This document shows positions 11,147 to 31,798 of a stretch of 32,181 bases of DNA, piece after piece. The DNA is from Elusimicrobia bacterium LH_S2 (lineage in GTDB: Bacteria; CG03; SLGR01; JAGXOG01): contig JAGXOG010000010.1 in NCBI GenBank assembly GCA_023660015.1, forward strand, positions 1 through 32,181, in the 5' to 3' direction. Each line of letters opens with the position of its first letter. The first letter of the stretch is position 1. The position numbers were made by a program, and so were the translations under genes. A model generated the notes under the pieces. It saw only the letters and a list, made by a program, of their open reading frames with translations. It was not told the origin of the DNA and did not search any database.

Positions 11147-12292
11147 ATGAAAAGATTATTAACATTACTGTTTATATTATGTTCTTTTGCCGGTGGGCTT
11201 ACGGCCGGGGAGATATCGGTTACCGATATTAAAATAATCGGCAAGACCGCTTCGGTTCAAATAAATAACGTCATCCGTATAAAAGAGATTGAAATTGACG
11301 GGAAAAAAGTAATTTTTCCCTATTACAAGTCAAAGTCGGGCAAAATTTATCCGCAGTTGAAGTTTTTAACCGACGAATCAAGAAAAGTAGTTAAAGACGC
11401 GGTCTTAAATAATAAAGAAACACCCAAAGCCATACGTAAAATTAACTATAAAATAACAAAGATGGACCCCAGCGGAAAGAAAGGTACGGTAAAAGCTTTT
11501 ACCGCGGTGACTTTCAACGGTGTTCTTGAAATAAAGTGCAAAGTTATGGAATCTTCCCATAAAGAAGGGAGTTATTGGATTGCTTGGCCTGCCCGGCCAC
11601 CTAAAAAAGGCGAGAAAGGGTGGAAGGACCAGGTGGTGATATCTAACCACAAAGTTAAAAAAATTGTAGAAGAAGCCCTCATTAAAAAATATGAATCCGG
11701 AGATAATTCCGGTTCAAGTTCAAGTAAATATACCGATGTTGACATTACGCTGGTCAATGAAACAATATCCGAGCCGCTGACGGTCACGGCGGTAAGTTTT
11801 AAAGAACGCAAAGGCGAAAACGGTCTTATAGGCCTGGCTTCAGTTGATTTAAACTATTCTTTCAGGATTAATGATATAAAAGTTTATTCTAAACTGGGAC
11901 AATCGTTAATGGAGATGCCTAAATATGTCTCTTCAAGCGGCAACGAATATGACCAGATACGGATTTTTGATAGTAAGCTCCGCAAGAAGATAAAAGAGGC
12001 CATAGAGAGCCGCACGCCGTCCCGGGTTAAATCCAGCCGGTTGGGGTATAAAATAACTAATTTCGAGAAAAACCAGTGGGGCGGGGCTATAAAATATAAC
12101 GGAGCACTAACCTTAAATGACGCAGTGGAGATACAGTTTAAAATAATCGACGGAGAATCCTATCACGCTTTTGTTGCCTGGCCTTCACTTAAGGAAAAAG
12201 GTGAATATGTGGATAAGATTTTCCCCTGTAATAAAGAAGTTAAAAAGGTTCTCGAGGATACGCTTAAAAAAAGATACTACGAGGAAGACTGA
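11147..12292 (+). CDS. Exported protein made of four SpoVG-like domains
   Basis: 381 residues with a signal peptide (about 1-20). The rest is four SpoVG-like domains: A1 about 22-90, B1 about 100-182, A2 about 210-289, B2 about 300-378. Each shows the SpoVG pattern: an initial I-T-x-(V/M/F) strand, a hydrophobic strand, a (F/M/W)P segment, and a final amphipathic helix such as VKKIVEEALIKKY or VKKVLEDTLKKRY. The A copies resemble each other (PYYKSKSGKIY, PKYVSSSGNEY). The B copies also match (WIAWPARPP, FVAWPSLKEKG, each preceded by YKIT). The protein therefore arose by duplicating an A-B unit. SpoVG of Firmicutes is a single-domain cytoplasmic DNA/RNA-binding regulator, so export and tetrad architecture are unusual. 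Function is unknown; nucleic-acid binding outside the cytoplasm is a hypothesis. It has no FlgD-like tail. Confidence 0.8.
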   Translation: MKRLLTLLFILCSFAGGLTAGEISVTDIKIIGKTASVQINNVIRIKEIEIDGKKVIFPYYKSKSGKIYPQLKFLTDESRKVVKDAVLNNKETPKAIRKINYKITKMDPSGKKGTVKAFTAVTFNGVLEIKCKVMESSHKEGSYWIAWPARPPKKGEKGWKDQVVISNHKVKKIVEEALIKKYESGDNSGSSSSKYTDVDITLVNETISEPLTVTAVSFKERKGENGLIGLASVDLNYSFRINDIKVYSKLGQSLMEMPKYVSSSGNEYDQIRIFDSKLRKKIKEAIESRTPSRVKSSRLGYKITNFEKNQWGGAIKYNGALTLNDAVEIQFKIIDGESYHAFVAWPSLKEKGEYVDKIFPCNKEVKKVLEDTLKKRYYEED

Positions 12293-12328: not shown

Positions 12329-13762
12329 ATTTTATATACAAAAATAAAAATAACGGTAAAATCCGCTATAGGAATACTCCTGGTCGCAGCATTAAATTTA
12401 AACGCTGCGGATGCAACTGATTATATAAAAGTTTTCTTTAACCAACCGGAAAAGTCAACATCCACATCCGAAATAACCAATCCCGATAAGGGTATCGATG
12501 GTGCCTTGATAGATTTTGTCGGCACTGCCCAAGCCGGGGATAAAGTCTATCTTGCTTTTCAAAGCAGCTCCACTCAAAAAATTACCGATGCATTTAAAGA
12601 CACCCTGGATACGGTTGGGCAAGACAGCATTTATCATATTATGGAGCAAGAATATGGAACGGGGTATAGCTTTCTTAATAATTCTATTGACGACGGCACG
12701 GATGGTTATCCTTTAATGCATAATAAGTTTGCCGTGGTTATAAATACAACATCTGAATATGGAAGGGTATGGACCGGTTCGTATAATCCAAATGCTTACG
12801 GCACCGTACAGAGCAATGAAAATGCCATTTGGGTGGAATCTTACGAACTTGCCCAAATATATAAAAATGAATTTATGCACATGTATGATATTGGTTTTTC
12901 TACAAATAAAAACTTGTCTTATAACAGTGCTCAGACTGTAACGTTACCGGACGAGAATAAAATAACTGTATATTTTTCACCTTATCCTTTATCAGGTGCC
13001 GGTGTTTATGATACTGATACCCGTTATGCTATTATGGATTTAATAGATTGCGCAAAATATTCAGTATTTTTTAATATTTTTACTTTTACTTCTTCTGAAA
13101 GAGACTATATACAAAAAAAGGTTGAAGAGGCCTATGATAGAGGAGTGGAAGTAAAGGGAGTTGTAGAAGCCAATCAGTCCAGAACGGTACAAAGCGAGTT
13201 AAGAGAGTATGGAATAGATGTTTTTCTTGACGCAAATGCTGAAAATTTACACCATAAATTTGCTATTTTAGATTACGGCTCGGCCAAACCTATTGTTATG
13301 ACTGGGTCTTACAATTGGACATCGTCGGCTCGTGATACTAATGACGAAAATTTTTTTGTTATTCATTCAAGAGAAGTAGCAGAATTATACTGGCGGGAGT
13401 TTCAGAAAAACTACGCCCTCGCCGCAGGCCGCAGTATTTCGAGCCTTTCGGAGGCTTCGGTAAGAAATGTGATTGCCTACCCATCTCCGGCAAAGAATGT
13501 TGATGAAGTTACTATAGGTTACGAGCTTTCGCCCGCCGTGACAGATGCCGGGATAACCGTATATACGCTGTCCGGTGAAATAGTCAGGAGTTTTGACCTC
13601 AAATCCGGAGAATTTTACCCGGGGACATATAATGAAAAAAGATGGGATTTACAGAATAAATCGGCGGACGATGTTGCTCCAGGCCTTTACATTATTAAAG
13701 TTGAAGCAGAGACCGGCGACGGGACATTCTTTGACACCGGCAAATTTGCGGTTATAAGATAA
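12329..13762 (+). CDS. Secreted phospholipase-D-family protein with FlgD-like tail (start codon uncertain)
   Basis: The frame is open from 12317 and contains no ATG, GTG or TTG until the TTG at 12506, which is plainly internal. Upstream residues form a signal peptide (KIKITVK, AIGILLVAALNLNA, ADA) followed by YIKVFFNQP. I place the start at ATT 12329, eight bases after AGAGAG; ATA 12344 or ACG 12353 are alternatives. Two PLD repeats follow. The first has HNK (H131, K133) and GSYN but lacks the aspartate of HxKx4D. The second is complete: HHKFAILD (H308, K310, D315) then GSYNWT. PLD-family enzymes cleave phosphodiesters of lipids or DNA, and the substrate here cannot be told. The C-terminal tail is FlgD-like (YPSPAKN, VYTLSGEIV, PGLYIIKV). 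It is 1 base into a 90-aa gene and near a PorV barrel, its probable export partner. Confidence 0.75.
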   Translation: MLYTKIKITVKSAIGILLVAALNLNAADATDYIKVFFNQPEKSTSTSEITNPDKGIDGALIDFVGTAQAGDKVYLAFQSSSTQKITDAFKDTLDTVGQDSIYHIMEQEYGTGYSFLNNSIDDGTDGYPLMHNKFAVVINTTSEYGRVWTGSYNPNAYGTVQSNENAIWVESYELAQIYKNEFMHMYDIGFSTNKNLSYNSAQTVTLPDENKITVYFSPYPLSGAGVYDTDTRYAIMDLIDCAKYSVFFNIFTFTSSERDYIQKKVEEAYDRGVEVKGVVEANQSRTVQSELREYGIDVFLDANAENLHHKFAILDYGSAKPIVMTGSYNWTSSARDTNDENFFVIHSREVAELYWREFQKNYALAAGRSISSLSEASVRNVIAYPSPAKNVDEVTIGYELSPAVTDAGITVYTLSGEIVRSFDLKSGEFYPGTYNEKRWDLQNKSADDVAPGLYIIKVEAETGDGTFFDTGKFAVIR

Positions 13763-14963: not shown

Positions 14964-15919
14964 ATAAAATAATTAAAAATATAGTTATTGTTATATTTCT
15001 GACAGCGTTTGCAGTTCCTGTTTTAGGTTTGGCCGGAGGTAATGGCGGCGGAGCGCAACCCTTGGTAGCCAGAAGGATTCCCCCTGTAAAATATGAAAAA
15101 TCTTCAAACGACATGGTTGTTTCTTTTATAGATGTGGGGCAGGGCAATGCGATTCTTGTCGAATCGCCGACCGGTGAGACTATTCTTTATGACGCGGGGG
15201 GAAATCCGGTATGGATGAAGTCTTCCTGGGACCCGGGGATGCAGTTAACTGTGCCGTACATAAAGTCCCGGGGAATAAACCGGTTGGATTATGCCATGAT
15301 TTCGCATGGACACGGGGACCATTCCGGTGGGATGAAAGCAGTTATATATAATTTTGATATCGGTATGTTTTACGATCCGGGATATAAATATACCGGCGGC
15401 CCCTATTTGGAGATGCTCCAGGCAATAAAAGCTAAAAATATAAGTTACGGCTACCTTAAAGCAGGCATGAAAAATAAGTTTAATATGGGAAAAGATATTG
15501 TGACTAAGGTATTCAGCCCGCCGAAGGATTTTTATTTTCAGGGTACTAATTCAGATACTAACAACAGTTCTATAGTGCTAAAGATAAAATATAAGGACGT
15601 AAGTTTTTTGTTTCCCGGCGATTTAGAATCCCGGGGAGAGATATATTGCGCGAAAAAATACGGGCACCAGCTGGAATCCAATATTCTGCAGGTGTGTCAC
15701 CACGGTTCGTTTACTTCTTCCTCCATTCCGTTTTTAAAACAGGTTATGCCTGAAGTGGCGGTAATTCCGGTAGGGAGGAACAATCCTTTTGGACATCCCC
15801 GCCCGGTGGCCTTAAATAACCTTAAAAATGTAGGTGCGGAAATTTTCAGAACTGATTATGACGGCAATGTAGTAGTTTATACAAACGGCAAACAATTTAT
15901 AGTTGAGACGGAAAAATAA
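14960..15919 (+). CDS. Secreted ComEC-type metallo-beta-lactamase-fold hydrolase (CTG start)
   Basis: 319 residues if translation begins at CTG 14960, which overlaps the upstream stop (CTGA) like the ATGA joins elsewhere here. GGAGTAGG at 14943-14950 is a good ribosome site nine bases before it. This start gives a signal peptide (NKIIKNIVIVIFLTAFAVPV). An ordinary start at TTG 15029 would delete it. The MBL domain matches the ComEC C-terminal type: FIDVGQGNAILV, LYDAGG, HGHGDHSGG (H116, H118, D120, H121), FPGDLE, CHHGS and FGHPRP, so the metal site looks complete. Relatives are phosphodiesterases/nucleases or are uncharacterised. The product should act outside the inner membrane. The ComEC encoded at 26985 has lost these residues, so this free enzyme may supply the activity; that is inference. 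Confidence 0.82.
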   Translation: MNKIIKNIVIVIFLTAFAVPVLGLAGGNGGGAQPLVARRIPPVKYEKSSNDMVVSFIDVGQGNAILVESPTGETILYDAGGNPVWMKSSWDPGMQLTVPYIKSRGINRLDYAMISHGHGDHSGGMKAVIYNFDIGMFYDPGYKYTGGPYLEMLQAIKAKNISYGYLKAGMKNKFNMGKDIVTKVFSPPKDFYFQGTNSDTNNSSIVLKIKYKDVSFLFPGDLESRGEIYCAKKYGHQLESNILQVCHHGSFTSSSIPFLKQVMPEVAVIPVGRNNPFGHPRPVALNNLKNVGAEIFRTDYDGNVVVYTNGKQFIVETEK

Positions 15920-15967: not shown

Positions 15968-16927
15968 ATGATAAGAAAAAGAGTATTATATTTAACGGCG
16001 ATGATGATAATGCTGACGGGCGCTCTTTTTGCGGCCGGCCCGGGCGATGTGGTGATAAACGAAGTTGCCTGGATGGGTACGGATGAGTCTACGGGGCATG
16101 AATGGCTGGAGTTATATAATAATACCGGTTCTGATGTTGATTTAACTGATTGGACCATAGAAAGTGACGGAGAAGTTATTGCTGATTTATCCGACACGAG
16201 TGATATGAATAATAGCACAATATCGGCTTCCGGATATTATCTTATAGAGTATAAAAACACAGATGGAGAAACTTCAATAAAGGATATTGTCGGAGATTTC
16301 CAGGGTTTGGGTTACCAAGAGTTAGGTAACAATCCTATTGGAGAAAGAGTACTACTAAAAAATTTTTCAGGCAATATTATTGATGAAATAGATTGTTCAT
16401 CAGTTGACTGGTTTGGTGGTGATAGCGATGAAAAAGCAACTATGGAACGACGATTTCCTGAGCAGGATTCAAATGATGAAGCGAACTGGGGGACAAATAA
16501 TAGGATGATCAGGAACGGGTGGGATGCGGATGGGAATCCCATAAACGGCACACCGAGGGCCAAAAACAGTATTTATGCCGCCGCGATGGAAGATCTGGAG
16601 GGGGTTTTAACCGTGGAAGATTCTCCTTTTTTCCCGCACGGAGATATCCCCGACAGGACCACAACCAGCATAGGGTACAAAATTGAAAATGATGCGGAAG
16701 TTTCTATAAGAATATATAATGTAGAGGGCAACCTAAAAGCTAATATACTGGAAAATGAATCTGTATCCGGCAGCGTTTCCCCGCACACCAAAGTATGGGA
16801 CGGTACCGGAAAAGGTGGGGATATAGTCCCCGTCGGGATTTATATAGTGCATATAAAAATTGTTGAAGATGATACCGGGGATATAACAACCGAACAGGCG
16901 ACCGCCGTGGTGGGGCGCAAATTTTAA
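15968..16927 (+). CDS. Secreted lamin-tail protein with FlgD-like C-terminal domain
   Basis: 319 residues. A signal peptide (about 1-23, ending GALFAAG) leads into one lamin-tail domain (about 25-200: VVINEVAWMGTDE, EWLELYNN, DEIDCSSVDWFGGD). The C-terminal FlgD-Ig-like domain is at about 225-319 (VSIRIYNVEGNLKA, KVWDGTGKGG, VPVGIYIVHIKI). It ends in VVGRKF rather than the usual Lys/Arg ending, and the PNPF motif is replaced by FFPHGD. Its lamin-tail domain closely resembles those of the protein at 6607 (VVINE-(V/I)-AWMGTD). Bacterial lamin-tail domains are known to be associated with extracellular ComEC-like and other hydrolases, which fits this locus. It lies 23 bases before the barrel/HhH gene and may be displayed by it (inference). 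Confidence 0.88.
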   Translation: MIRKRVLYLTAMMIMLTGALFAAGPGDVVINEVAWMGTDESTGHEWLELYNNTGSDVDLTDWTIESDGEVIADLSDTSDMNNSTISASGYYLIEYKNTDGETSIKDIVGDFQGLGYQELGNNPIGERVLLKNFSGNIIDEIDCSSVDWFGGDSDEKATMERRFPEQDSNDEANWGTNNRMIRNGWDADGNPINGTPRAKNSIYAAAMEDLEGVLTVEDSPFFPHGDIPDRTTTSIGYKIENDAEVSIRIYNVEGNLKANILENESVSGSVSPHTKVWDGTGKGGDIVPVGIYIVHIKIVEDDTGDITTEQATAVVGRKF

Positions 16928-16950: not shown

Positions 16951-18336
16951 ATGGAAATAAAAATATATAAAAAATGTTTTATGGTTACGCTAGCTCTTCT
17001 TACGACGGGCGTAATGACGTTGAAGGCCTCATTCGAGTTTAAAGAAGCCGGCGTCAGGGGCGCGGCAATGGGCGGCGCTTATACCGCCGTAGCAGATGAT
17101 GTGGAAGCCATTTGGTGGAATCCGGCGGGGTTAAGATTAATTAAGGGTGTAGAATTTACGTCAACTTATACCAATCTTTACGGTATGTCCGACCTTGGGT
17201 ATAATAACGTCGTACTTGTAGTACCCACGCTTATCATAGGAACCTGGGGTGTCGGATATTCGGGGTTTGGCCCCAGCGAGTACAAAGAAACGGACATACG
17301 CCTGAGTTTCGCATCAGGGCTGGGTCATGGTTTTTATCTGGGAACAAATCTTAAAAACCAGACCGTTGATATTAATTACGGGGGAAAAGCTTCAACTTTT
17401 GGTTTTGACGTGGGAGTTATCTCTAATGTAGGGGAAAAATTACGGCTCGCATTCAGCGGCATAAATATTAACAGTCCTACACTCGGCGATACGGTGGACA
17501 ATACCGCCCAGAGATTTCTTGTTGGCGTACAATGGAAACCCCAGGCGGAGGTGAGCGCTTCTTTGGATTTTCAGAAACCCATTGATGAAGAGATGCAAGT
17601 ACGTTTTGGAAATGAATTTCGGCTTAATGAGAATTTTGTCATCAGGGGGGGGGTACAGTCATTTCCAGTGAGATTTTCGGTTGGCTTCGGGGTGAACTGG
17701 GCTCTTTTCAATTTTAATTATGCTTATCAGACTCACGAGGTACTTGCCGGTCAGCATCTTTTTTCTCTGGGAGGCAAATTCAGGGGAGAAGGAAGGCAAA
17801 GAGCGGCGTATGAAGGCGCGTCAAGAGAAGAAGAAAGATTCAGCGGAAAAGTCAATATTAATACGGCAACTGTGGAGGATTTAACAAAACTTCCCGGAGT
17901 CGGAAGCATAACGGCAAAACAGATTATAACTTACCGGCAAAAAGCAGGTGAATTCCGGTCGGTTCAGGAGTTAAGAGATATATACGGTTTTTCCAGGACT
18001 ACGTATGATAAGATAGAAAAATATGTGACGGTTGATAAAGCGACGGATGTTAAAAGTTCGTCGACCGGAAGATCTCAGCAGCAAAGAAGGTCGGAACCTG
18101 AGCCCGAGCCCGAACCTGAGTCGGAACCAGTGAAGGAAATTGAGAAAATTAATATAAATAAGGCGGGAATAAGGGATATCGCAGGAATTTCCGGTGTCAG
18201 TTCACTGCTTGCCCGCAATATCGTTAGCTACCGTAACCGGCAGGAAAGCTTCAACAACTGGGACGATTTATTAAAAATTCCCGGAATAAATAACAGAGTA
18301 TTGAATAATATAAAAGAGGAAGCCGTATTTGAATAA
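16951..18336 (+). CDS. PorV-like outer-membrane barrel fused to two ComEA-like helix-hairpin-helix modules
   Basis: 461 residues; GGAGG at 16942-16946 supports the start. After a signal peptide (about 1-26) comes a PorV barrel (about 28-278) with AAMGGAYTAVADD and WWNPAG. Next are two ComEA-type (HhH)2 modules: 300-361 (VNINTATVEDL, LPGVGSITAKQI) and 397-461 (ININKAGIRDI, ISGVSSLLARNI, IPGINNRVL). Between them is an EPEPEPEPE-rich spacer (about 381-396). ComEA (HhH)2 domains bind double-stranded DNA during natural transformation, normally in the periplasm or on the membrane. Here DNA-binding modules are attached to an outer-membrane barrel. Their side (periplasm or surface) depends on barrel topology, which the sequence does not settle. 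The next gene starts on the base after the stop and also carries HhH modules. Confidence 0.88.
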   Translation: MEIKIYKKCFMVTLALLTTGVMTLKASFEFKEAGVRGAAMGGAYTAVADDVEAIWWNPAGLRLIKGVEFTSTYTNLYGMSDLGYNNVVLVVPTLIIGTWGVGYSGFGPSEYKETDIRLSFASGLGHGFYLGTNLKNQTVDINYGGKASTFGFDVGVISNVGEKLRLAFSGININSPTLGDTVDNTAQRFLVGVQWKPQAEVSASLDFQKPIDEEMQVRFGNEFRLNENFVIRGGVQSFPVRFSVGFGVNWALFNFNYAYQTHEVLAGQHLFSLGGKFRGEGRQRAAYEGASREEERFSGKVNINTATVEDLTKLPGVGSITAKQIITYRQKAGEFRSVQELRDIYGFSRTTYDKIEKYVTVDKATDVKSSSTGRSQQQRRSEPEPEPEPESEPVKEIEKININKAGIRDIAGISGVSSLLARNIVSYRNRQESFNNWDDLLKIPGINNRVLNNIKEEAVFE

Positions 18337-20589
18337 ATGAAATTTCTTAAAAGTGCAATAATTATAACTCTACTGACGACAGCTTTTACGGATAAGCCCG
18401 CCCGTGCCCGGCGGCGAATATCGCTGGTAGATATCAACCGTGCTATCCGGCAGAAATTTGTCCGGCTGCCCAGTATTACTGCTGAACTTGCCGGGAATAT
18501 CGTAGAATATCGCGCACAACATAATTTCTTCAATAAGTTAGAGGATTTGCTAAAAGTAGAGGGTATAACAGAGGATATATTTGAAGAAATAAAACCGTAT
18601 CTGACTATGACCCCCGCAAACGAGATTGAAACGGAAGAGGCGCTTGAAAGATTCGAGGATATACATGAAGAGGACACGGGGGGTGGCTATTACGATATTG
18701 ATATAGAGGAAATTCAGAAATATGTAACGAGGCCGCTGGATTTAAATACCGCGAATAGAAGCCAGTTTCTTGAGTTTCCCTACATTACAGACGAACTGGC
18801 TGATGAAATAATTAAATACAGAAGGGAAAACCGCGGTTTTTCAAATGTTGATGAGCTGAGAGAAATTATGGCCGATGACATTGTAGACGAGCTTCAGTCG
18901 TTTTTTACCGTTCTTGAAGAAGATGCGGTTGAGGAATTTCACGGAGACCTTAGATTCAGGTATTATGTGGGACCCATGCCTATTGATGATGATTATGTCG
19001 ATGCCGACGAAAAATTTCACCATCCGGAATATTTCTATACACGGTACCGTATGTTTTACGGCAATAAAGCAGAATTTGGAATTAAGTCAATACACGATGA
19101 TGGGGGAATAAATTACAATTACAGGAACGCTAGAGATTATTTTATCAGGGAAAATTATCTCCTTATGAGGAACGTTCTGTCGCTGGATACGCTGGTGCTG
19201 GGAAATTACAAATTAGATTTCGGACAGGGGCTCCATATTCAGCCCAATTGGTTTTATATAAGACCCTGGATAAGGAGACCGAGGGGAATAAAAGACGGCG
19301 GTAATAAATTCTACGGGATCGCCGGTAGCAAGAGGGTCGGTAGCTGGGAGTTTTTTGGCTTTTATTCTGACAATGATATTCCGGTGAGCAGTGTAAATAT
19401 AGACGGGTCGGTTGACTCAACATTGTTTAAAATACGCAGTAGTTTCGTGGCATGGGATTACAAAGATGCCAACAGCGATTATTTTGACGGTCATACTTTA
19501 AATGACAGATCTTACGGCACCAGAGTAAAACATAATCTTACGGCATCAATAAATATCGGATGCATTTATTCAGAACATTTACTTGACCCCGTATTGGACC
19601 CCGGCAGCAGCACGGAATATTTAGAGTCGGGTCGGGGAGACAAGGTAAGGCTCATAGGGCTTGACGCTGAATATATGTATAGGAACATGAGGCTGCTTAC
19701 TGAATGGGGCAGAACCTATTATCACAGCTTTACTTCCACTTCGGATTTTACGGTAGACGGCAGAAACAGGGAATGGGACTGGGGCTACGGTGACGGCATG
19801 CAGATTCTCTCGGTCTTTAGTTACGAAAAGATTAGATTTCTGCTGAAGTATGTCCGGTTGGGAGAGGAATATTCTGCCTATTATGCCAGGCCATATATAG
19901 CGCACTGGTGGAAAATAGAAGAAGATACGTTTAGTAATTTTGAGAACCGTGAAATAAGCGTTGAATATGACGGCAAAAATACAGAAACAAGCCTCTCCTT
20001 CACTAACAATATTGTTCTTGATACCCAGGAATCGGAATATAGCGTTTATATATCACAGTTAATATCGCCCCATAAAAAGATTGATATAAAGGCAATTTAT
20101 AATCCCAGATGGGATGGCGACAGTTTTGAAAATATATGGGTCGGAAAAAGGCTGGAGATGATATATGCTCCTGTTGACCATTTAAGATTAAAATATAGGT
20201 ACCAAATAAATTCCTGGACAGATAAAAAGGACAATACGGAAGAAAATGCCGTAATTAATTTTGCCGAGCTGAAATATAATCCCAATTCGGCGCTGACTAT
20301 ATATTCCCGGTTAACTTTTTGGAATAATGCCCCCGGGACATACCACAGGATAAGCGCTCTGGAAACCAGGTGGCCAAATTTTTTGGACAGCGTACCGGGT
20401 ATGGCCGATCCTAAATATCCGGGCGGTTATATGAGGTGGTATATTATGCCCACTCTCAAACTTTCCCGGAACGTTAAATTTTGGACTAAATTTGAGTACT
20501 GGCCTGTTTGGCAGGGGGATTATGTAGCCAGCAGCGGGAGCCATAAAGACCAGGTCCTGTTCAGGACGCAGCTTGATATGTCATGGTAA
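18337..20589 (+). CDS. Outer-membrane protein with two N-terminal ComEA-like HhH modules and a large beta barrel
   Basis: 750 residues, with its ATG immediately after the upstream TAA. A short signal peptide (about 1-24) is followed by (HhH)2 modules at about 28-92 (VDINRAIRQKFV, LPSITAELAGNIVEYR) and 131-193 (LDLNTANRSQFL, ITDELADEIIKYRR), separated by an acidic linker. Residues about 200-750 are a large beta-rich domain with alternating aromatic strands (FRYYVGPMP, YKLDFGQG, YRYQINSW), ending in LDMSW; the last Trp fits an outer-membrane barrel. Similar HhH-plus-barrel proteins occur in Bacteroidetes genomes, usually labelled ComEA family. A role in binding and importing DNA at the outer membrane is inferred from the domains, the preceding HhH barrel and the downstream comEC. 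The hairpin GxG residues are less perfect here than in the gene at 16951. Confidence 0.85.
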   Translation: MKFLKSAIIITLLTTAFTDKPARARRRISLVDINRAIRQKFVRLPSITAELAGNIVEYRAQHNFFNKLEDLLKVEGITEDIFEEIKPYLTMTPANEIETEEALERFEDIHEEDTGGGYYDIDIEEIQKYVTRPLDLNTANRSQFLEFPYITDELADEIIKYRRENRGFSNVDELREIMADDIVDELQSFFTVLEEDAVEEFHGDLRFRYYVGPMPIDDDYVDADEKFHHPEYFYTRYRMFYGNKAEFGIKSIHDDGGINYNYRNARDYFIRENYLLMRNVLSLDTLVLGNYKLDFGQGLHIQPNWFYIRPWIRRPRGIKDGGNKFYGIAGSKRVGSWEFFGFYSDNDIPVSSVNIDGSVDSTLFKIRSSFVAWDYKDANSDYFDGHTLNDRSYGTRVKHNLTASINIGCIYSEHLLDPVLDPGSSTEYLESGRGDKVRLIGLDAEYMYRNMRLLTEWGRTYYHSFTSTSDFTVDGRNREWDWGYGDGMQILSVFSYEKIRFLLKYVRLGEEYSAYYARPYIAHWWKIEEDTFSNFENREISVEYDGKNTETSLSFTNNIVLDTQESEYSVYISQLISPHKKIDIKAIYNPRWDGDSFENIWVGKRLEMIYAPVDHLRLKYRYQINSWTDKKDNTEENAVINFAELKYNPNSALTIYSRLTFWNNAPGTYHRISALETRWPNFLDSVPGMADPKYPGGYMRWYIMPTLKLSRNVKFWTKFEYWPVWQGDYVASSGSHKDQVLFRTQLDMSW

Positions 20590-20604: not shown

Positions 20605-21837
20605 ATGAAAAAAATAATTATAAATACAATGATGATAGTGGTCGCCTTTACGGCGACGGCTTTTCCGCAGACCTATGTGGGAAATATTCTTGGTGTAGGG
20701 GATGAGGTTTTAAGCGTATCGGCAAGAGAGTCCGCCATGGGTAATACTGGCGTGGCCTCGAGCGTCGGTCCGGCTTCAATGTTTTACAATCCGGCAAATA
20801 TAGCGGGTATGCAGAGAGGCATGCTTAATATTTCCGCAGGCCTTTATCCGATTAAAGAGCGGGTTGAGTATGCTGATGAGCAGTACTTCATAAATTCAAA
20901 CAATTATCTTGAATTATCTGATTTTTCAATAAGTTATCCACTCGGAACGGCAGTTACGATCGGGCTGGGAAGGTTTCCGAAATACAGGATGCAATATCAG
21001 AGAGACAAGTCAGATTTAATTGATGAACAAAAAACATATGATTTTACCGGGGGGGTCAGCGCCATAGATATCGCGGCGGCTTTTTCTTTAGGGTATCTCA
21101 TTGACCTCGGGTTCGGGTATAATATTTTAAGCGGCAAAAATAGCCGGGAAATCGTTTATGTGATTGATGAGGAGACACGGACTACAACTACCGATACGCT
21201 GGATATAAGCGGCGGTAGCTTTGATATAGGCCTCCGGCTGAAACCCGGCGATTTTATAAAAGTGGGATTTTTAATAACTCCTTCATTTGAAACCGATACG
21301 GTGACAGAGCCTCAAACTAAAAAGGAAGTTTGGGACAGCGCGGGTAAAGAGTGGAATAAAATATCAAACATTACTTCCGATGAAACAGATAGAATATATA
21401 AATATCCCCAGAAAGTAGGGGTAGGGTTAAGTTATGAATTCTGGGAGATGCACCGTGCCATTTTTAATATAGATATAGTCAGGACAAACTGGGAAGATTT
21501 TCGGGTTATCGATCCTGACAGCGACACCGAGGTTGATCCTGGATACAGAAATACCACAAGAGTCAGCATAGGGGTTGAGCATTATCTTGACCAGGTAATG
21601 GCCCTCAGGTACGGCTTTGCCCATGAACCTTTTTATGGTGATACATCGTGCTATGCGATGGATATTACCGCCGGGGTGAGGTTTCCCATTACTATAAATA
21701 TTGATATAGATATTGCCGGCCAGTATGGATTAAGAACAGATTTTGAAAAATATTTATACGGCAGAAAAGATGAAGAAGTAAAGGAAGTTAATGAGCGCCT
21801 TGGCATGTTGCTTGCAACTATGTCGTGGACTTTTTAA
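20605..21837 (+). CDS. PorV/OmpP1-like outer-membrane barrel
   Basis: 410 residues. GAGGAG at 20591-20596 precedes the ATG by eight bases. A signal peptide (about 1-22) is followed by a PorV-like opening (SARESAMGNTGVASS, then FYNPANIAG), with Asn in place of the usual Gly in NPAG. The length exceeds the roughly 300 residues of the other PorV-like proteins here. It may be closer to the OmpP1/FadL or TraF-like branch. The terminal residues MSWTF end in Phe as expected for a barrel. The stop is directly followed by the ATG of the C10 protease, so the two are probably co-transcribed. Cargo or transport substrate is unknown. Confidence 0.8.
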   Translation: MKKIIINTMMIVVAFTATAFPQTYVGNILGVGDEVLSVSARESAMGNTGVASSVGPASMFYNPANIAGMQRGMLNISAGLYPIKERVEYADEQYFINSNNYLELSDFSISYPLGTAVTIGLGRFPKYRMQYQRDKSDLIDEQKTYDFTGGVSAIDIAAAFSLGYLIDLGFGYNILSGKNSREIVYVIDEETRTTTTDTLDISGGSFDIGLRLKPGDFIKVGFLITPSFETDTVTEPQTKKEVWDSAGKEWNKISNITSDETDRIYKYPQKVGVGLSYEFWEMHRAIFNIDIVRTNWEDFRVIDPDSDTEVDPGYRNTTRVSIGVEHYLDQVMALRYGFAHEPFYGDTSCYAMDITAGVRFPITINIDIDIAGQYGLRTDFEKYLYGRKDEEVKEVNERLGMLLATMSWTF

Positions 21838-26984: not shown

Positions 26985-29942
26985 TTGCGTAAAGACCGTT
27001 TTATAATAACTTTAATTAAATGGGGTTGTTGGTCTTTTGTGGCCGGGGTGGGTATAGCAAATATACTCGGGCCCCAGCCCCACGAATTTATGCTTAAGAT
27101 GTGGTTGCTTAGCAGCGTATTTTTTCTGCTTTCCGGATTTCTTTTCTTTGCCCACCGTGAGCTTGTACGCTACACTTTAATCCCGGCGGTAGTAGTTTTA
27201 GGTCTGGCCTCCTACCAGTGGCGGTTTGATACCTCAAATCCCGATCACATAAAAAATTTCAAAGATAAAACTCGTTGGAATTCAACTGTTGTAGAAGGAA
27301 CCATAGTAGCCGACCCCGATGTCAGGGAATGGATAACACATATAGTAATAAACCCCGAAAAGATAATTAAGAACCCGGAGAGCAGTTCCCCTGATATACG
27401 CGAACTTTCCGGTAAGACGGGGTATTTAATAAGTTTTGTATCCGAGAGCATAGAAGAAAAAAATCCTTATTACCGTAACATGGAATTTGGTGACAGAGTC
27501 AGGGTCTCCGGAGCGCTTACCGAGCCTATGCCCCTTACTAATCCTTATGGGTTCAATTATGCCCAGTATCTGAAAAACAGAAACATCTATGCCAGTCTCT
27601 ATGTCGGTGAGCCGGAAAATATTAAATATATTGAAAAAAGTAAGCTTAATTTTTACAGCCGGCTCAAGAAGATGTCTTTTAAGATTAAAAAAAAGATGAT
27701 TTTAGGCCTTAAAAAGACTGTGCCTCCCCCCGCATCGGCATTTATAGGAGGAGTTACCGTAGGTGCCAGGGGAGGAGTTCCCGAAGTCCAAAAGTTTGAT
27801 TTCCAGGCTACCGGCGTAGCTCATGTTTTGGCGCTGTCCGGGCTTCACGTCGGATTTTTGGCAATAATGCTCATTATGATATTTAATAATTTCTTTAAAT
27901 CTCCTCTCTTATTTTATAAAATTCCGTCAAAAATTTTCGGCCGGGAGGTAGACCTGACCCCTTATTCATTAAAGCTCATACCTATTTTTGTTATTTTTGT
28001 GCTTTTTGTATTTACCATTATTACCGGGGCTCGCGCGGCGACTATACGCGCAGCGATGATGTTCAGCATAGGAATAATATTTGCCAACTGGCTGGGAATG
28101 AACCTGAACCGGGCGGGAAGCGTTACGATTCCCATGGCGGCGGCTATAATGCTCAGCGCGAATTCTTTTCTTATATACGATGCGTCTTTTGCTCTTTCTT
28201 TTGCCGCGGTCTGGTCTATAATATATCTTTCAGGTCCCTTAAGGCAGGTTTTTTCGCGGATAATAGTAGGTTGGGGCCAGCTTGTTTTTCTTATATTTTT
28301 AATCTTTGCTGTGGCTGTGCTTGTAGTATCGCCCTGGCTTTTTACCAGTGTACTATTTAATATCTATATGGCCGGGTTTTTCGGATTTGCGGCCTTGGCG
28401 GCTTACCTGCTTGAAAAGAAATTTCCTCTTACAGGATTTGAATTTGAGGGGTGGTGGCCGTATATCGCAGGCTTTTTCTGCGTCCAGCTTTCTATTCAGA
28501 TAGGTATGATGTGGCCGCTTTCCGGAGTTTACTTTAATCGTTTCCCGATTGCCGGCGTGGTAGCTAATTTTATAGCCATTCCGCTTATCGGTATCATAGT
28601 CCCACTGGGGCTTATCGGCCAACTTTTTACTTTCTGGCCCGGGGTTGGTGAGCATATAGGTCTGGCTATAGGGGCCACCAATAATATGCTCTCTAACTTT
28701 TTCCTATGGATGGCCAGGTTTTTCAGGACTTATTTTCCTTATCCCGTACATTCCGCACCACCCGCAAAATGGATGGCTACCTATTATCTTATGATAATTA
28801 TCTTCGGATTTAACAGGTCTATAAGGGATTTTTTAAAGGATAAACTTAAGTTTTCCGGGAAGGCTTCCGTATGGGCGACAGTAGGCCTTCTGATTTTTAT
28901 ATTTTCCTCTGCTTACTGGGCTCACGACCTGGTAAAAGGCAAGGTTAAAGCGGAGAACGAATTACTGGTTACTTTTCTTGATGTAGGTTACGGAAACTCT
29001 ATCCTTATCCGGACCCCCGGAAAGAAAAACATACTTATTGATGCCGGTGCGCGGGGAGACAAAAGATACTGGACTATGGGTAAATGGGGTAAAGGCAACA
29101 GTGTGGTTATCCCCAATTTGTCGGGATATAATATATCAAAACTTGATAAAATCATAGTATCAAATCCTCTTCCCGAAAATATAGGCGGTATGATATATCT
29201 ACTGAAATATTTTAACATAGAGGAAGTCTGGGATTCTTTGAATCCGGAAAAATTCACTCAAAATATGCATTATCGGGATTTTCTGAAAAAATTCAATGAT
29301 ATACGTCTGCTTATAAGAATGAATCAGCCCCTGCCAATAGGCATTTATTTAAATTATTACGACTTTTTAAATATGAACCTCGCCCGCCCGGAAGAGGCAG
29401 ATAAGAAAAATATTAAAGAACATATCTTTAAAGAAAATTTTATTCCTCACAGGTGGGCGCATGAAGGCACTCTCATATATGAAGAGGAATATAGCGGACA
29501 GTCACTTAAATTGGAATCTTTAAATCCGCCGCTCGAAAGAATTACCGGAACAGGCAATGATCTATTAAACAATTCCCTTGTTTTAAAATTGACATACGGA
29601 GACATTTCTTTTCTTATGCCATCCAATATTCAAAGAGAGGGAGAGTATATACTTGTTGATAAATACGGGGACAGTTTAAAATCAAGCGTGCTGGTTATGC
29701 CGGATCACGGAAGCAGCATGGCTTCTTCGGACAGGTTTCTAAAAGCGGTTAATCCTATTTTTGCTGTTGCCCAGTACGGTTACCTAAAGGGTAGGAGTTT
29801 TTACGATACCGAACTTGACAGGACAATACGGAAATACGACGATAATAAAATAAAAGTTTACCGTACGGATAAATCCGGCGCCATAGAGATGAGAACAGAC
29901 GGCAAAATAATTAAGATAGATACTGTAATGGAGGCTTTTTAA
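26985..29942 (+). CDS. comEC: ComEC/Rec2 DNA-uptake channel with degenerate MBL domain
   Basis: 985 residues from TTG 26985, with GGGGG at 26970-26974 as a possible ribosome site. N-terminal membrane spans (about 8-75) are followed by an OB-like soluble domain (about 100-210: EGTIVADPD, VRVSGALTEP). The Competence membrane domain (about 250-590) has the hallmark ALSGLHVGF and the RAATIRAAMM segment. A last span lies near 630-650, then an MBL-fold domain (about 660-985). ComEC carries single-stranded DNA across the inner membrane during natural transformation. The MBL domain opens normally (FLDVGYGNSILI, LIDAG), but the metal motif HxHxDH is replaced by SNPLPENIGG near residue 725. HHGS has become PDHGS and the GHPHP segment is missing. 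The domain is therefore probably not a metal-dependent nuclease. A membrane channel role remains likely. Confidence 0.93.
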   Translation: MRKDRFIITLIKWGCWSFVAGVGIANILGPQPHEFMLKMWLLSSVFFLLSGFLFFAHRELVRYTLIPAVVVLGLASYQWRFDTSNPDHIKNFKDKTRWNSTVVEGTIVADPDVREWITHIVINPEKIIKNPESSSPDIRELSGKTGYLISFVSESIEEKNPYYRNMEFGDRVRVSGALTEPMPLTNPYGFNYAQYLKNRNIYASLYVGEPENIKYIEKSKLNFYSRLKKMSFKIKKKMILGLKKTVPPPASAFIGGVTVGARGGVPEVQKFDFQATGVAHVLALSGLHVGFLAIMLIMIFNNFFKSPLLFYKIPSKIFGREVDLTPYSLKLIPIFVIFVLFVFTIITGARAATIRAAMMFSIGIIFANWLGMNLNRAGSVTIPMAAAIMLSANSFLIYDASFALSFAAVWSIIYLSGPLRQVFSRIIVGWGQLVFLIFLIFAVAVLVVSPWLFTSVLFNIYMAGFFGFAALAAYLLEKKFPLTGFEFEGWWPYIAGFFCVQLSIQIGMMWPLSGVYFNRFPIAGVVANFIAIPLIGIIVPLGLIGQLFTFWPGVGEHIGLAIGATNNMLSNFFLWMARFFRTYFPYPVHSAPPAKWMATYYLMIIIFGFNRSIRDFLKDKLKFSGKASVWATVGLLIFIFSSAYWAHDLVKGKVKAENELLVTFLDVGYGNSILIRTPGKKNILIDAGARGDKRYWTMGKWGKGNSVVIPNLSGYNISKLDKIIVSNPLPENIGGMIYLLKYFNIEEVWDSLNPEKFTQNMHYRDFLKKFNDIRLLIRMNQPLPIGIYLNYYDFLNMNLARPEEADKKNIKEHIFKENFIPHRWAHEGTLIYEEEYSGQSLKLESLNPPLERITGTGNDLLNNSLVLKLTYGDISFLMPSNIQREGEYILVDKYGDSLKSSVLVMPDHGSSMASSDRFLKAVNPIFAVAQYGYLKGRSFYDTELDRTIRKYDDNKIKVYRTDKSGAIEMRTDGKIIKIDTVMEAF

Positions 29943-29947
29943 ATAAG

Positions 29948-31798
29948 ATGAATTTCATAAGTAATTTATATAAAAAAGGTATTAAACTGACGGGGGATAC
30001 TTACAGGTTCTTTTTCAGACCTAACGTTACTATGAGTAATTCTCGGCTGAATCAATATTCTACCTGTCCGTTAAAATATAAGTATCATTACGAAATGGGA
30101 TTAAAAGGTCGTCCGTCTTCTCATCTGCATTTAGGGAGCACTATTCATGACGCCCTCTTTGAATTTCACTCAAAATTTGATTTAAGGGGCAACCAAGGAA
30201 CGTTTGACGATTTAATGAGAGAATACGAAAAAGCTTGGGAAGAAAATAAAGAGGATATGATTATCTCTGTCGCCGGTCCGTCGACTAACCGTTGGAGAGT
30301 AGCGCTTTCCGAAGCTAAAGTCGGAAAAAAGGAATCAGATGAGACATTGAAAAAGTTAAGAACCATCTATTACTCTCCCCAGGTAGAAGAAGAGTTTAAA
30401 AAACGCGGAGTTAAGATGCTTGAGGACTATTTTAAAGATAACCAGACAAACCCTAATAAAATTATAGCCCTGGAGAAACCCATTACTATTACTCATAAAG
30501 GAATAGATATTCTCGGGTATGTAGATAGGGTAGAAAAGACCCCTGAAGGGGAAATAGAAATAGTAGATTACAAAACCGGAAAAAGGACCAAAGACGAAGA
30601 AGCTATAATGCTTGGCGGCGATACCCAGGCAAAGATATATACTATGATGTTTGAAAAAAAATGGAAGAAAAAATTAAAGAACTTTTATTTTTATTATCTC
30701 TCCAACAGGACAAAAGTGCCCTGTAATCCCCAAAGAAGATTAATTAAACAAACTTTTGTAGATATAGAAGAAACCATGAAAAATATTAAATACGAGAAAT
30801 TTGACTTTGACCAGAGTCCGCTTTGCGGATGGTGCGATTACGAAGTAATATGCCCCGCCTGGAAGGGCTCTCAGGCTCCCTACCGAGGAATTTTCAGAAA
30901 AGCAAGGGATAGGGGGCAGATGACATTTTCGTATTCAAAGATGGGAGCTTACAAGAAATGCCCGTATAACTACCGCAAGCTTTATATAGATAAAATATCT
31001 CCGAAACCAAAGCATTTCTTTGCCATAGGCCATTCCTGTCACGAAACTTTTGAGGAATTTTTTAAATATCCCTATCAGCCCTCGAAAAAGCAGCTTAGAA
31101 AGATATTTGAAGACAACTGGCACAGCGAAGGGTACAGATCAATTGAGGAAGAAGAAAGATACAAGAAAGATGGGTGGCAGTGGTCTTCTAAATATTACGA
31201 TAAGTTCATTGATGGCCACTATATACCGGCGGAAGCCGTAGAGCTTTATTTTCAGCTGCCCATAGGCAACGACTATGTAATTATAGGATATATGGACAGG
31301 CTGGAAAAGAGGCCGGACGGCAGTTTCCATATTCTTGATTATAAGACCGACCCCAAAATGAGATATCAGGAAGCCATTGATAATGACCTTCAGCTAACCT
31401 CGTATTACTGGGCCATGAAACAACTCGGTATTGAAGTGGAATCTCTCTCCCTGGAATTTCTAAAATTTACCGAAAGATTGACTACTACCCGGACCGAAGA
31501 AGACATTCCCGAATTTATAAATGAAGTTAATACTGTTATCAGGGAGATGGCTGCCAAGGAAAAAGAACTGGAAAAATACGACAATTACCCGCCGGAAAAA
31601 AGAGAAAAGAAAGCAGTAGAGCTTTTTCCTGCGACATGGAATAAATACTGTGGGGGATGCGATCATCTTGTAGGCTGTCCGATAGAACAGGAAATACGTA
31701 CCATACATAAGGATGAGGTTATGAACCTGCAGGAGAACGAGCCTATGCCAGAACCTGAAGACAGACAAGAGTCTGAAGAGGAAAAATACGAAAGATAA
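29948..31798 (+). CDS. Tandem PD-(D/E)XK (RecB/Cas4-like) nuclease with two iron-sulfur-type cysteine sets
   Basis: 616 residues containing two copies of the same nuclease fold. Copy 1 (about 28-305): SRLNQYSTCP (Cys40), GSTIHDAL (His67), GYVDRVEK (Asp193), IVDYKTGK (Asp207, Lys209), Gln227, then CGWC and a third Cys (293, 296, 302). Copy 2 (about 326-580): YSKMGAYKKCP (Cys338), GHSCHETF, GYMDRLEK (Asp450), ILDYKTD (Asp464, Lys466), Gln482, then CGGC and a third Cys (568, 571, 577). In RecB/AddB/Cas4 relatives this layout gives a DNA nuclease with a [4Fe-4S] cluster per domain. No helicase motifs and no signal peptide are seen, so it should be cytoplasmic. The acidic C-terminus is low complexity. 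It follows comEC by five bases. Processing of incoming or broken DNA is inferred. No adjacent cas1/cas2 is visible. Confidence 0.88.
   Translation: MNFISNLYKKGIKLTGDTYRFFFRPNVTMSNSRLNQYSTCPLKYKYHYEMGLKGRPSSHLHLGSTIHDALFEFHSKFDLRGNQGTFDDLMREYEKAWEENKEDMIISVAGPSTNRWRVALSEAKVGKKESDETLKKLRTIYYSPQVEEEFKKRGVKMLEDYFKDNQTNPNKIIALEKPITITHKGIDILGYVDRVEKTPEGEIEIVDYKTGKRTKDEEAIMLGGDTQAKIYTMMFEKKWKKKLKNFYFYYLSNRTKVPCNPQRRLIKQTFVDIEETMKNIKYEKFDFDQSPLCGWCDYEVICPAWKGSQAPYRGIFRKARDRGQMTFSYSKMGAYKKCPYNYRKLYIDKISPKPKHFFAIGHSCHETFEEFFKYPYQPSKKQLRKIFEDNWHSEGYRSIEEEERYKKDGWQWSSKYYDKFIDGHYIPAEAVELYFQLPIGNDYVIIGYMDRLEKRPDGSFHILDYKTDPKMRYQEAIDNDLQLTSYYWAMKQLGIEVESLSLEFLKFTERLTTTRTEEDIPEFINEVNTVIREMAAKEKELEKYDNYPPEKREKKAVELFPATWNKYCGGCDHLVGCPIEQEIRTIHKDEVMNLQENEPMPEPEDRQESEEEKYER

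Follow-up and report, generated by a model that had tools for sequence, protein, structure and literature searches.

How does DNA cross the outer membrane of diderm bacteria without a pilus or a secretin? This is an open question, and the genetics of R. anatipestifer hints at machinery that has yet to be described (PMC8459023). Two abutting genes of the uncultured Elusimicrobia bacterium LH_S2 (genome G000; 1.04 Mb, 67% complete) raise the question anew, one encoding an outer-membrane barrel and the other a putative one, and both carrying ComEA-type HhH modules; a conserved two-barrel pair of this kind is a concrete and genetically tractable candidate for outer-membrane DNA entry. The reading frames, of 461 aa (product P0001) and 750 aa (product P0002), abut at the coordinates first noted for them and lie on contig C11, which is our window, i.e. 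the whole 32,181-nucleotide stretch that was analysed. The features of the pair are as follows.

16951..18336, forward strand: PorV/FadL-type outer-membrane barrel with two C-terminal (HhH)2 modules, 461 aa (Pfam, model, Foldseek, NCBIfam)
17029..17784, forward strand: 14-strand PorV/FadL-like barrel, aa 27-278 (AlphaFold2 model, Foldseek)
17845..18036, forward strand: HhH module 1, aa 299-362, hairpin PGVGS (HHH_3, 2.1e-21)
18136..18318, forward strand: HhH module 2, aa 396-456, first hairpin GVS (HHH_3, hairpin table)
18337..20589, forward strand: HhH-barrel protein, 750 aa, with signal peptide, two HhH modules and a large beta-rich domain (Pfam, profile, hhalign)
18421..18609, forward strand: HhH module 3, aa 29-91, degenerate hairpin PSIT (HHH_3, 1.2e-16)
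18736..18906, forward strand: HhH module 4, aa 134-190, degenerate hairpin PYIT (HHH_3, 5.4e-10)
18934..20586, forward strand: putative beta-barrel of the outer membrane, HhH-barrel family (relatives found by profile in many phyla; Saprospiraceae relative L089)

The initial annotation read the gene at 16951 as a PorV-like barrel joined to two ComEA-type modules, and its reading is borne out, domain boundaries included. Pfam HHH_3 matches P0001 in two stretches (2.1e-36), and the protein scores well over the cut-off of the NCBIfam model TIGR00426, "ComEA HhH repeat region" (90.7 bits vs 53.1). The AlphaFold2 model (mean pLDDT 71) has 14 strands between E67 and E277 as well as well-modelled HhH modules, and a Foldseek search of the PDB with it returns FadL and chain 8gl6_F, the PorV of a T9SS (TM-score 0.46 relative to query length). 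The match to the PorV/PorQ family in NCBIfam (6.8e-20) lies under that family's cut-off; both PorV models are in fact missed, the equivalog NF033710 at 16.9 of 250 and the family NF033709 at 71.9 of 90. In other words, P0001 resembles PorV, PorQ and FadL (UPF0164) in its 14-strand FadL-type barrel and NPAG motif region but differs from them in that it adds a C-terminal HhH extension, probably periplasmic, and in that it sits on a branch apart from the other PorV paralogues of the loci examined.

For the abutting gene at 18337, two further modules ahead of a large barrel had been claimed. The modules are present (Pfam HHH_3, 3.3e-26, two stretches; 44.4 bits for TIGR00426, under the cut-off of 53.1), and the barrel is putative, resting on predicted strands and family resemblance. 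Structure prediction of the single proteins, which had been suggested as a check, gave a 14-strand barrel for P0001 and a poor model for P0002 (mean pLDDT 42), the latter too weak for a fold search. By profile, tblastn and hhalign, P0002 fits a family of HhH-barrels in which one or more HhH modules precede a homologous barrel. HhH-domain barrel proteins of Bacteroidota, such as L089 from Saprospiraceae, belong to the same family by tblastn and profile; L089 differs in that no PorV partner stands next to its gene.

Is the pair a peculiarity of one contig? Relatives were sought with an alignment of 7 rows; a single-sequence scan of the genome contigs had given no match, and an alignment of 13 rows had no conserved stretch. 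The named relatives are MAGs called "Elusimicrobia bacterium" (L082-L086, L088), one called simply "bacterium" (L087) and a Saprospiraceae contig. Among 16 genomes of the phylum, G000 included and families f5 and f6 represented, the gene pair is present in 14, and the PorV-HhH fusion runs in unbroken frame in independent MAGs. An assembly or annotation artefact, the explanation that the initial annotation had allowed for, can be dismissed on these grounds and on the presence of the fusion in other phyla. The modules themselves vary: in f5 and f6 a segment that matches TPR below threshold stands in place of the second module of P0001, and in f6 the barrel protein has a single HhH module, with extra, separate HhH proteins encoded besides the pair. 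In G014 the PorV barrel lacks HhH altogether and its barrel partner has one weak module. G011 and G012 lack the pair, and a scan with HHH_3 found no such domain in them. The same scan places every HHH_3 module on the pair in G000, G010, G013 and G015, and detected no soluble ComEA elsewhere in these four genomes (G000 and G010 being 67% and 94% complete, respectively).

The main new point is that the two-barrel gene pair occurs across phyla. A profile search with P0002 finds HhH-barrels of ~600-900 aa to be widespread, and a PorV-type barrel stands directly before the HhH-barrel in 13 of 19 loci from other phyla, a figure that is no census, since the 20 loci fetched (19 of them readable upstream) were picked for strong barrel scores. 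PorV-HhH fusions recur at L066, L073, L107, L108, L110, L112, L113, L114 and L115, so that uniqueness to the window is ruled out; the fusion had been flagged as unfamiliar, and we found no earlier description of it, of the HhH-barrel family or of the gene pair in the open-access literature searched. At L112 and L114, from two genomes, the barrel that comes after the fusion is devoid of HhH, and yet hhalign identifies it as a homologue of the HhH-barrels (E 3.7e-16). Fused, unfused and HhH-less-partner arrangements are thus all found; the paired barrels are the constant element, and the HhH modules are exchanged between them, sitting on either partner or on both. Additionally, in a FastTree phylogeny built on a small and uneven sample, PorVs that adjoin a barrel or bear HhH group apart from 15 other PorV paralogues with a local support of 0.966.

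What might such a pair do? We give an even chance to the idea that it serves as an outer-membrane-tethered substitute for ComEA in DNA uptake. ComEA acts in the periplasm; it is soluble in Gram-negatives such as V. cholerae, and in B. subtilis it combines a transmembrane segment, an oligomerization domain and HhH. The HhH region of P0001 is like ComEA in that it passes TIGR00426 and aligns with the solved ComEA structures 8dss/8dfk (module 1 also matches EEPD1, 9yi2), which argues for the substitute; the difference is that the modules here ride on barrels, whereas ComEA is soluble in the periplasm or anchored in the inner membrane. On which side of the outer membrane would they sit? Both termini of a 14-strand barrel emerge on one side, which in FadL and PorV is the periplasm, and so the periplasm is where the modules at the C-terminus of P0001 should lie; those at the N-terminus of the poorly modelled P0002 would be expected there too. 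This topology, to the extent that it holds, speaks against taking the DNA receptor that was first envisaged for a surface receptor.

The description of four DNA-binding modules was also overstated. All four pass the HHH_3 cut-off in a genome-wide scan, and the canonical GxG hairpin (as GVG) is kept in module 1 only. In V. cholerae, ComEA depends on its GIG hairpin region being intact and on the lysine pair K62/K63 (PMC3879209); by position, the two lysines correspond to I/T in module 1. Across the loci compared, the first hairpin is GxG in 20 of 30 PorV-borne modules vs 0 of 51 barrel-borne ones. Module 1 is thus a plausible DNA binder from its sequence, whereas the barrel-borne modules, given that none of the 51 keeps the hairpin, are more likely structural. 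The missing hairpin counts against a ComEA substitute and in favor of a different view, in which the HhH modules act as adaptors that bind protein, the pair is part of a type IX-like machinery for secretion or surface attachment, and DNA has no role; we consider this possible, if rather unlikely. The same modules do match the structural HhH relatives GspK and PsbU, and the barrel of P0001 belongs to the PorV/FadL family and finds the T9SS PorV among its structural matches; the predominance of GxG in PorV-borne modules and the score of P0001 against the ComEA-HhH model point the other way.

The neighboring genes bear on both views. Those of the window with recognizable domains include the following.

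11147..12292, forward strand: repeated-SpoVG protein with a signal-peptide-like N-terminus (SpoVG, 7.3e-27, three stretches)
12506..13762, forward strand: PLD-like protein with two PLDc_2 stretches (1.1e-27) and a weak C-terminal sorting-type tail
15029..15919, forward strand: exported, stand-alone equivalent of the C-terminal metallo-beta-lactamase of ComEC, HGHGDH intact (TIGR00361 positions 441-663, 1e-39)
15968..16927, forward strand: exported lamin-tail-domain (LTD) protein whose C-terminal tail weakly resembles FlgD_ig/CHU_C, encoded directly upstream of the pair (LTD, 6.6e-12)
20605..21837, forward strand: FadL-type barrel (Toluene_X; Pfam), a conserved downstream neighbor in the phylum
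26985..29942, forward strand: long ComEC, 985 aa, with DUF4131, Competence (4.8e-35) and a degenerate Lactamase_B

SpoVG normally binds nucleic acids in the cytoplasm, and the repeated-SpoVG protein is conserved near the pair (for example, at L047 14157-15317, 1.1e-23). With exported neighbors that act on nucleic acids, the DNA entry device first suggested is plausible in its core idea of uptake; a receptor at the surface and an independence from pili are unproven. Linkage to comEC, another of the checks first suggested, is found both here, with comEC 6.4 kb downstream of the pair, and in the unrelated G256 (L110), where the order is LTD, PorV-2HhH, HhH-barrel, ComEC, so that comEC directly follows the equivalent trio. 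Few of the loci have comEC in the vicinity of the pair, which weighs against the ComEA substitute. The nuclease function of ComEC is seemingly split in the window: the HGHGDH metal-binding motif of the protein at 15029-15919 was sought in the metallo-beta-lactamase domain of the long ComEC (26985-29942) and is absent there. The protein directly downstream of comEC (29948-31798) has two PD-(D/E)XK nuclease-family stretches.

Could the cluster instead feed the cell? Surface nucleases might cut extracellular DNA and the HhH barrels pass the fragments as nutrient, with ComEC incidental. The PLD-like protein, whose second HKD motif is intact when read by eye, and the exported metallo-beta-lactamase with its intact HGHGDH would suit this scheme, as would the proteases with similar tails in the window, which suggest a degradative surface lifestyle. 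We nonetheless find scavenging doubtful, as ComEC is present in 15 and DprA in all 16 of the phylum genomes, and as G014, the sole genome without a ComEC match, has no PorV-borne HhH.

Separately, over 141-26784 PorV/FadL-type barrels take turns with exported proteins whose tails resemble FlgD_ig/CHU_C (LTD, PLD-like, C10 and S8 peptidases), as though each cargo came with a PorV. Under the adaptor view, PorV-like barrels would carry cargo with such tails or hold it in place, and the large barrel would be a protein anchor or channel, a division of labor that we hold to be conceivable without thinking it probable. The FlgD_ig/CHU_C/Por_Secre_tail-like tails of the exported neighbors fit it, and together with the many nearby PorV paralogues they make T9SS-like surface attachment compatible with the locus, to the detriment of the ComEA substitute. 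Six phylum genomes, G000 among them, match SprA_N weakly, which also favors the adaptor view, but a Pfam scan of the whole protein does not recover the match; against this view, too, are the abundance of nucleic-acid domains among the neighbors and, in G108, a PorV of the same kind that carries OB-folds as well as HhH.

How, then, would a tethered ComEA substitute work? P0001 and P0002 would form a paired outer-membrane complex, with the ComEA-type modules tied to the barrels on their periplasmic side and not free in the periplasm. Incoming double-stranded DNA may be bound outside by exported neighbors, here the lamin-tail protein and in other phyla lamin-tail, OB-fold or DUF5689 proteins, and would enter via PilQ or via the barrel pair itself; the PorV-borne module 1 could then hold it against back-sliding, while ComEC would process the DNA and bring it into the cell, with help from the exported ComEC-type metallo-beta-lactamase. 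This proposal draws on the presence of the pair in 14 of 16 genomes, in four of which it is the sole HHH_3 carrier, and on ComEA-like proteins that have SLBB and no HhH beside canonical comEC in G010 (L105 7137-7553) and G004 (L106 4371-4766), which would fit a ComEA whose HhH part may have moved to the outer membrane. It draws as well on the three arrangements of the pair and the split in the PorV tree, on the G256 gene order ending in ComEC, on the PorV of G108, and on G014, in which ComEC and PorV-borne HhH are missing together. The separate HhH proteins of f6 and G205, which has the pair and no ComEC match, count against it.

Genetics lends a further argument, as DUF5689 and HhH proteins are essential in R. 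anatipestifer: its transformation needs an HhH protein (RA0C_RS02645), a DUF5689 surface protein (RA0C_RS04920), a predicted outer-membrane barrel (RA0C_RS04915) and ComEC (PMC8459023). The likeness is that, when other phyla are considered, LTD, OB-fold and weak DUF5689 matches are frequent in the gene upstream of the pair, the DUF5689 matches being sub-threshold in most upstream genes of distant loci. The difference is that RA0C_RS02645 is predicted to be periplasmic and RA0C_RS04915 has a carboxypeptidase-regulatory domain; the likeness of these two to the pair is one of description.

Does the pair replace the pilus? The device had been called distinct from the pilus/secretin route, a claim left unsupported by G000, which has pilMNOPQ on contig C44 (L100) and a pilus-type ATPase (PF00437), and by the phylum, in which all 16 genomes have a secretin. 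Outside the phylum, G068 (100% complete) encodes both the pair and ComEC; no secretin was found in it, and its PF00437 matches are marginal at best. A pilus-independent role is therefore possible. A further, separate frame of 185 aa in this genome resembles HhH. In G144 the secretin search gave no match, but ATPases are numerous. A bolder idea, which strikes us as improbable, is that PorV-type barrel and HhH-barrel together make up an outer-membrane channel for DNA entry, widespread and so far undescribed, that can do without type IV pili or secretins and has HhH ratchets built into its proteins. If true, such a channel would explain DNA uptake in ComEC-bearing diderms without pilus machinery, G068 being an example.

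Three observations stand beside this argument. Most phylum genomes have two types of ComEC, of ~700 and 800-990 aa. Contig C37 of G000 (L101 2050-7128) encodes a 1692-aa protein, possibly a T9SS-like translocon in an Elusimicrobia-like genome; its weak SprA_N match is over the cut-off in a 1702-aa frame. Finally, in G108 (L073 8136-12404) a PorV joined to two OB-folds and a single HhH adjoins a five-HhH-module protein and a further HhH protein, all of them near an HhH-barrel.
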